Shown here: positions 3,761 through 4,725 of the stretch, piece after piece
Position numbering within the stretch: position 1 is the first letter of the stretch
Layout: each line of letters opens with the position of its first letter
DNA from: Haloarcula rubra
Lineage (GTDB): Archaea > Halobacteriota > Halobacteria > Halobacteriales > Haloarculaceae
Length of the DNA: 64,000 bases
Assembly (NCBI RefSeq): GCF_019599465.1
Contig: NZ_RKLR01000001.1
Coordinates: 496,001 to 560,000, forward strand
Direction: 5' to 3'
Notes under the pieces: generated by a model
What the model saw: the letters and a program-made list of their open reading frames with translations, nothing else
The model's database searches: none
Told to the model about the DNA's origin: nothing
Program-made: the position numbers and the translations under genes

Positions 3761-4018
3761 ATGAGCGGGGACAACCGGGTCGAGGTGACGGTCGCCGAGT
3801 GGCCCGACGACGCCGACAGCGACGAGGGCGTCGTCGTCAACTGGTTCACGCGGGAGGGCGCGAGCGTCACGGAAGGCGATAGCCTGTGTGAAGTCCAGAT
3901 AGAGAAGGTGAGTCTCGACGTTCTCGCACCAGCAGACGGCACGCTCGTCGAAGTCGTCTGTGGCGAGGACGACGAGTTCGCACGCGGGGACACGCTCGCG
4001 TGGGTGGAGCCAGCATGA
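3761..4018 (+). CDS. Free-standing lipoyl (biotinyl/lipoyl-like) domain protein
   Basis: An 85-residue single lipoyl domain. The modified lysine is predicted as K49 in CEVQIEKVSLDV, at the hairpin tip with the usual Glu-x-x-Lys context. It should be the swinging arm that carries the acyl group from E1 to the E2 active site. The domain is normally the N-terminus of E2, but here it ends with its own stop codon, which overlaps the E2 ATG (ATGA). A GDSLCEVQ strand and the APADGTLVEV hairpin are visible. There is no linker and no peripheral subunit-binding domain. Confidence 0.9.
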   Translation: MSGDNRVEVTVAEWPDDADSDEGVVVNWFTREGASVTEGDSLCEVQIEKVSLDVLAPADGTLVEVVCGEDDEFARGDTLAWVEPA

Positions 4019-4725
4019 CCGACGACGAAGCCGCGGAGCGAACCGTCCGCGAGGAGCGGTCGCTGAGTCCGATGCGCAAGACCATCGCCAGTCGGTTACA
4101 GGAGAGCTATCGGGAGGCCGTCCACGTGACGGTCAGCCGTGAGGTGGACGCGGAGAGCCTGTTGAGTGCCGTCGCCGCCGCGGACCCGGACGAGGACGGC
4201 GTCAGCCCCTCGATGGTCGACGTCCTCCTCTGTGCGCTCTCGGACACGCTGGAGGAACACCCCGCGTTCAACGCCACGTTCGAGGACGAGACGCACGTGG
4301 TGTACGAGGAACACAACGTCGGCGTCGCCGTGGCCATCGAGGACGGCCTCGTCACGCCCGTCGTCGCCGACGTCGGGTCGAAGTCACTCGGCGAACTCGC
4401 CACCGAGCGCCACGAGTTGACCGAACGCGTCAAAGAGGGCGAGTACACGATGAGCACGTTCCGCGGCGGGACGTTCACCGTGTCGAACCTCGGCCCCCTC
4501 GGCGTCGACTCGTTCGACCCCATCATCAACCCGCCCGAAGTCGCCATCCTCGGCGTCGGGCGCATCACCGAGCGGGCGACACAGAACGGCGACGGCGACG
4601 TCGCCTTCCGCCGACAGATGCCGCTGGACCTGAGCTTCGACCACCGTGTCGTCGACGGCGCGGACGCTGCCCGGTTTCTGGGAACGCTGTCGGAGCACCT
4701 CGACGCGGCCGAACAGTACGTCTGA
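4015..4725 (+). CDS. 2-oxoacid dehydrogenase E2 acyltransferase, catalytic domain only
   Basis: 237 residues corresponding to the CAT-like acyltransferase domain of E2. The active-site motif HRVVDG lies at residues 210-215 (SFDHRVVDGADAARFLG), and the N-terminal LSPMRKTIASRLQ helix is typical. The start is the ATG at 4015, overlapping the stop of the lipoyl gene; an upstream in-frame start at 4000 would sit inside that gene. Compared with usual E2 proteins (about 400-550 residues) it lacks the lipoyl domain, the E1/E3 subunit-binding domain and the long linkers. No dihydrolipoamide dehydrogenase (E3) gene follows, so E3 must come from elsewhere. Confidence 0.92.
   Translation: MTDDEAAERTVREERSLSPMRKTIASRLQESYREAVHVTVSREVDAESLLSAVAAADPDEDGVSPSMVDVLLCALSDTLEEHPAFNATFEDETHVVYEEHNVGVAVAIEDGLVTPVVADVGSKSLGELATERHELTERVKEGEYTMSTFRGGTFTVSNLGPLGVDSFDPIINPPEVAILGVGRITERATQNGDGDVAFRRQMPLDLSFDHRVVDGADAARFLGTLSEHLDAAEQYV

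Follow-up and report, generated by a model that had tools for sequence, protein, structure and literature searches.

A free lipoyl protein and a bare E2 catalytic domain in a putative dismantled 2-oxoacid dehydrogenase of haloarchaea

In Haloarcula rubra, a short operon encodes what is, judged by its sequence, a dismantled 2-oxoacid dehydrogenase: the lipoyl arm is a separate protein (LIP), the transferase (E2) consists of a catalytic domain alone, and no subunit-binding docking domain (PSBD) is present. According to the textbook view, efficient transfer in 2-oxoacid dehydrogenases depends on a swinging arm that is tethered and on a very large core. The operon belongs to a conserved set without the arm tether, the docking domain and probably the core contacts, and one organism was found to have no backup, which makes the textbook assumption directly testable; the set also makes it possible to trace how a multidomain enzyme was dismantled and in part replaced. 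Because the split is conserved and under selection, the PSBD is absent, and the genome of Halobellus salinus shows neither a PSBD nor a fused E2, we consider a mobile carrier resembling the H-protein to be the best reading. The DNA analyzed (the window) is a stretch of 64,000 nucleotides from a genome of 37 contigs.

Organization of the operon and its two E2 fragments

The four genes are co-directional, with overlaps or gaps of only a few bases (Table 1). The sequence-only reading of this DNA had correctly placed the lipoyl arm and the catalytic core in separate, overlapping genes; the 237 residues that it gave for E2 should read 236 from the ATG, or 241 from an alternative upstream GTG at position 4000.

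Table 1. Features of the operon and their positions in the window
Feature	Position	Strand	Evidence or remark
E1-alpha, first gene of the operon, 346 aa	1692..2732	+	Pfam E1_dh, 235 bits
E1-beta, 341 aa	2732..3757	+	Pfam Transket_pyr and Transketolase_C; NCBIfam NF006667, 335 bits (cut-off 321)
LIP, stand-alone lipoyl protein, 85 aa, lipoylation-site Lys49	3761..4018	+	Biotin_lipoyl, 50.2 bits
E2, bare catalytic domain, 236 aa counted from ATG	4015..4725	+	2-oxoacid_dh, 234.6 bits; HRVVDG motif
LIP stop and E2 start overlapping as ATGA, 4 nt	4015..4018	+	Same layout in loci L127 (H. pellucida, a 94% match), L128 and L141
E2 C-terminus, HLDAAEQYV at the end, where full-length E2s have P-x-x-LL	4669..4725	+	

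In the window, LIP and E2 are parted by just one stop codon and the four-nucleotide overlap, as might be expected of a single fused E2 taken for two genes through a sequencing or annotation artefact. The probability of this is negligible, however, as LIP has its own stop codon ahead of the E2 catalytic part in all 24 unbroken E2-bearing loci examined, with varying frames and spacings, and the PSBD is missing altogether. The consistent separation rules out a sequencing error or an overlooked fusion, including the missed base that the sequence-only reading had itself named as the finding that would overturn it. RefSeq annotates the same two genes separately in Natrialba magadii and Halobaculum roseum.

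Above the Pfam cut-offs, LIP matches only Biotin_lipoyl and E2 only 2-oxoacid_dh. The arrangement is thus not that of a classical multidomain E2, since the lipoyl domain sits in its own gene with its own stop and no PSBD is present. In a profile search for E3_binding (PF02817) at E<=1, no match was obtained in LIP, in the window's E2, or in the longer bare E2 of genome G087, while the four positive controls in the same search, one E2 from Chloroflexota and three haloarchaeal E2s of full length, gave 43 to 137 bits. The subunit-binding segment is therefore absent from both products, as had been proposed. A PSBD hidden in the longer bare E2s was also considered and rejected: the one tested, the 267-residue protein of G087, shows an acidic linker only.

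LIP has the features of an E2-type lipoyl domain, exceeding the Biotin_lipoyl (PF00364) cut-off of 22.1 bits by a wide margin and carrying Lys49 within EVQIEKVS. It resembles GcvH and LbpA, which are likewise small, unattached proteins that carry lipoyl between separate enzymes (excerpt of PMC6067878), but differs from them in the profile that it matches, and its score of 14.6 bits against GCV_H (PF01597), below the cut-off of 22.2, rules out its being either of the two.

The bare E2 retains the hallmarks of the catalytic domain. H210 and D214 of the H-x-x-x-D-G motif are invariant across 13 aligned bare E2s, and the structure predicted from 13 sequences (mean pLDDT 77) has the E2 fold, with a TM-score of 0.81 to 1b5s and about 0.8 to E2 catalytic cores in the PDB. 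The C-terminus has changed: P-x-x-LL or a similar motif ends 19 of 21 canonical E2s and 15 of 18 full-length relatives, compared to a single one of the 24 bare E2s. According to an excerpt of PMC10415282, the C-terminal end of E2 forms the "knobs and socket" contact between trimers, and in actinobacteria disrupting the C-terminal region yields a trimeric E2. Given the loss of the motif from 23 of 24 bare E2s and the actinobacterial precedent, a trimer is a reasonable prediction, and the bare E2 may lack a large multi-trimer core. Loss of the motif is not tied to loss of the PSBD, since the motif is also missing from one Chloroflexota E2 and from three E2s of full length. Separately, in the bare E2 of Halobellus salinus (L080; genome G138) the variable loop before HRVVDG is lengthened by about 70 residues, an in-frame insert of Gly/Asp-rich repeat.

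Distribution, conservation and origin

LIP orthologues were found in 43 of 146 Halobacteriales genomes at E<=4.8e-18, with a clear gap to the next match at 5.6e-9. In each of the 43 loci LIP directly follows E1-beta, E1 being broken or cut off in some, and E1-alpha adjoins LIP in nearly all relatives. A bare E2 follows LIP in 12 of these genomes, which answers in the affirmative the earlier question of whether other haloarchaea keep the split; two of the copies are broken, by a stop in G043 and by a frameshift in G121. The remaining 31 surveyed loci have E1 and LIP without an E2 alongside. At least 80 named loci were listed, comprising 76 from haloarchaea and four from Chloroflexota; L204 and L183 come from different contigs of a single strain. 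Seventeen of the haloarchaeal loci have an adjoining E2 (frameshifted in L158) and 59 have none, one of the latter (L146) lying too near a contig end to tell. LIP is thus a more general part of the system than the bare E2, and the idea that it is mainly one half of a split E2 does not hold. Since most LIP loci lack an adjoining E2, E2 may not be the sole partner of LIP.

Among 11 LIP neighbors in E2-less loci that were read by eye, nothing acyltransferase-like was seen. A recurrent neighbor, considered as the missing partner, was rejected because it resembles isocitrate dehydrogenase by eye and lies on the opposite strand. In three related genomes (L092, L093 and L096), LIP is followed on the same strand, at about +300 to +340, by a protein of 192-193 residues, which in L092 looks by eye like a haloarchaeal 2Fe-2S ferredoxin. 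Locus L108 has a small gene (116 aa), cupin-like by eye, at -2475 from LIP and upstream of E1-alpha, and open reading frames of approximately that size occur at that position in some other loci.

Comparison of the window with four relatives gave dN/dS values of 0.02-0.26 across the four operon genes, and of 0.14-0.26 for LIP. Other pairs mostly fall below 0.35, LIP reaching up to 0.45 (L152-L156) and, over 82 codons between H. salinus and H. clavatus, 0.75. The lysine corresponding to Lys49 is kept in all 80 named loci listed, the four from Chloroflexota included, and in 42 of the 43 surveyed loci, the exception being an arginine in G121, a locus with frameshifts. The split is conserved and under purifying selection.

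These values also bear on the alternative of a relic operon that is in decay and does little. Broken copies occur in at least ten loci (G043, G054, G057, G086, G121, L158, L163, L164, L174 and L176), and occurrence is sporadic, with the operon present in only two of 32 Haloarcula genomes. The low dN/dS of all four genes in the window and its relatives and the unfailing lysine nevertheless make a relic very improbable. The many broken copies indicate that numerous lineages can dispense with the operon. Interruptions or frameshifts affect the E1 genes of L082, L112, L094, L163, L164, L174 and L176, and in G054 and G086 unrelated open reading frames replace most of E1-beta; with E1 broken in several loci, decay is frequent. 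Large plasmids of haloarchaea carry the lipoyl gene as well (10 PLSDB records, NC_013924.1 included), and this location fits the gene's patchy distribution.

Among the matches listed, the closest non-haloarchaeal kin are Chloroflexota, with 53-58% identity to the window for E1-alpha, 63-67% for E1-beta, and 40-45% for the lipoyl domain. Against a LIP profile, their four lipoyl domains score 60-63 bits, compared to at most 48 for all 39 haloarchaeal E2 N-termini and 14 for the GcvH of the window's genome, a comparison to be read with the pre-selection of the Chloroflexota loci by LIP patterns in mind. The Chloroflexota E2 of L202 combines lipoyl domain, PSBD and catalytic domain in one chain; that of L205 is also a single open frame, and contig ends truncate those of L203 and L206. 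The catalytic domain of the window's E2 is 36-39% identical to those of Chloroflexota (two loci), compared to 56-65% for a group of full-length haloarchaeal E2s, two of which were scanned and have two and three PSBDs. A tree of 65 catalytic domains unites the 24 bare E2s (84/74, not starred) and nests them in a starred clade that also holds 18 haloarchaeal E2s of full length. A constraint joining the two long-branched Chloroflexota E2s with the bare E2s was not rejected (p-AU 0.147), and a separate origin of the bare E2 is therefore likely rather than proven. The bare E2 is likely to be related to multidomain haloarchaeal E2s and not to the E2 of the Chloroflexota operon. In the related clade, the haloarchaeal E2s of full length have tandem PSBDs, and several carry a C-terminal extension; in G112 (L064) the extension is an OsmC domain (PF02566, 60 bits), an unusual fusion.

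A tree of E1 with 70 rows (the window, 65 named haloarchaeal loci and four Chloroflexota) places all 17 E2-bearing loci within one 36-member clade with an SH-aLRT of 100, and no E2 was seen in any of the 30 haloarchaeal loci outside it. Grouping these 17 loci as a clade of their own is rejected (p-AU 0.00015). This topology suggests a single gain of the bare E2 within haloarchaea followed by several losses. The simplest history would then be that of an E1 operon resembling the Chloroflexota operon with its fused bacterial E2, of which haloarchaea retained only the lipoyl domain; in one sub-clade, a bare E2 akin to the multidomain haloarchaeal E2s would have been placed behind LIP, and several lineages would later have lost it.

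Partners in the genome and the proposed mechanism

The sequence-only reading had described a system with no E3 and had advised a search of the genome for E3 and lipoylation genes. The operon indeed contains no E3, but two E3 genes elsewhere exceed the TIGR01350 cut-off, and absence from the operon therefore does not imply an E3-free system. One of them, on contig C22, belongs to a complete second complex, OADHC1, which consists of LipA, E1-alpha, E1-beta, a 536-residue E2 and E3. The other, on contig C13, is part of a glycine cleavage operon, in which GcvH and E3 were identified by profile and the other genes by eye. The two LipA genes lie near OADHC1 (C22:19710-20588) and near the glycine cleavage operon (C13:24427-25308). 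A 264-residue LplA-family protein on C11 matches several lipoate-ligase models, all below their cut-offs, and is thus LipM/LplA-like; this class is LipM in Halobacteriales according to an excerpt of PMC3904984. With these genes elsewhere in the genome, both lipoylation and E3 are available in trans, and lipoylation of LIP in vivo is possible.

Halobellus salinus JCM 14359 (G138, locus L130), listed as 99% complete, serves as a natural test case. PF02817 was searched over 13 genomes and a PSBD was found in 11, those without being G138 and G089 (70% complete). The only PF00198 match in the H. salinus genome is the bare E2, which has a dN/dS of 0.24 against H. clavatus, and the only PF00364 matches are LIP and the AccC-type biotin domain of a 610-residue carboxylase. 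One E3 over the cut-off and LipA are present. Unless genes fell in assembly gaps, H. salinus would thus have no classical E2 at all and have kept the split one. The case shows that such a set can stand in a genome where neither a PSBD nor a fused E2 is detectable.

On this basis, we think it fairly probable that LIP is a diffusible carrier, similar to the H-protein, that serves E1, a trimeric E2 and a borrowed E3. E1 (alpha2beta2, ThDP) would decarboxylate a 2-oxoacid and acylate the lipoyl-lysine of the diffusible carrier. The acyl carrier would then visit the bare E2, probably only a trimer, where the acyl group would be transferred to CoA, and the E3 of one of the other operons (OADHC1 or glycine cleavage) would reoxidize the carrier, yielding NADH. 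Lipoylation, the replacement of channelling by diffusion, the trimeric state and the sharing of E3 are all steps that we infer. Our opinion is evenly balanced on the broader proposal that this would be a scaffold-free 2-oxoacid dehydrogenase with no PSBD, cage or tethered arm, the only E2-dependent system of H. salinus, and that in the E2-less majority the carrier may feed the E2s of other complexes.

Two other arrangements deserve consideration. LIP might mainly feed the E2s of other complexes in trans, with E1 and LIP acting as an add-on decarboxylase module to which the bare E2 is optional. The predominance of loci without an adjoining E2, in both the named and the surveyed sets, speaks for this, as does the presence of at least one E2 gene in 42 of 43 genomes with LIP compared to 87 of 103 without (Fisher p 0.023, kinship ignored); however, an E2 is present in most haloarchaea in any case, the bare E2 coupled to LIP in the window would be left unexplained, and H. 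salinus has a bare E2 only. We therefore see feeding in trans as a serious possibility, but a somewhat doubtful one as the main role. It is unlikely that the bare E2 instead joins the E2 cage of OADHC1 in a hybrid complex, at which LIP, E1 and E3 would gather with the PSBD provided by the other E2. Such a partner does exist in the window's genome, whose OADHC1 is complete and has an E2 with two PSBDs, and 11 of the 12 genomes with a bare E2 have a PSBD elsewhere, but H. salinus has neither a detectable PSBD nor a second E2, the bare and canonical catalytic domains are only about 41% identical, and 23 of the 24 bare E2s lack the C-terminal motif.

A further gene follows the bare E2 in H. salinus (L080:7687-8343) and in H. 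clavatus (L132:6003-6641). The 219-residue protein from H. salinus weakly matches octanoyl/lipoyl-[GcvH] transferases (33.7 bits against a cut-off of 400), and the protein could possibly be a dedicated lipoyl-relay enzyme in these two species; LipL is reported to be absent from archaea in the excerpt of PMC3904984.

Relation to known systems

A search of the open-access literature retrieved no description of a free lipoyl protein with a bare E2, of a PSBD-less genome, or of the operon's history. Wanner and Soppa reportedly described, in 2002, that E1-alpha and E1-beta are accompanied by an "unattached lipoic acid binding domain" in the oadh2 operon of Haloferax volcanii (HVO_2595/HVO_2596). 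We take this oadhAB2 to be an E2-less form of the present operon, on that description and on the gene order of eight loci from other Haloferax species, which have E1-alpha, E1-beta and LIP as in the window but, unlike it, no bare E2. For oadhAB2 of H. volcanii, the table in PMC8305020 gives no substrate and excludes pyruvate and 2-oxoglutarate.

Borziak et al. (2014; PMC3904984, excerpt) already name archaeal proteins that consist of a lipoyl domain only as a class next to those of E2 and GcvH, and LIP is alike in being a single-domain archaeal lipoyl protein. These proteins, and the split genes as annotated in RefSeq, are what is already known; the E1 operon, the bare E2, the loss of the PSBD and the history of the operon are not described in that excerpt. 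A functional parallel comes from actinobacteria, where OdhA works on lipoyl supplied in trans (PMC10415282, excerpt). As in the system proposed here, an E2 catalytic domain that has no lipoyl domain of its own (in OdhA/KGD) uses lipoyl in trans, and the E2 core is reduced to a trimer (AceF); the differences are that AceF carries the lipoyl domain, that OdhA/KGD joins its E2 domain to E1, and that an insertion accounts for the C-terminal change. Within the window's own genome, the OADHC1 E2 shares its chemistry and catalytic domain family with the bare E2, but it is a single 536-residue chain of lipoyl domain, two PSBDs and catalytic domain, with E3 adjacent.
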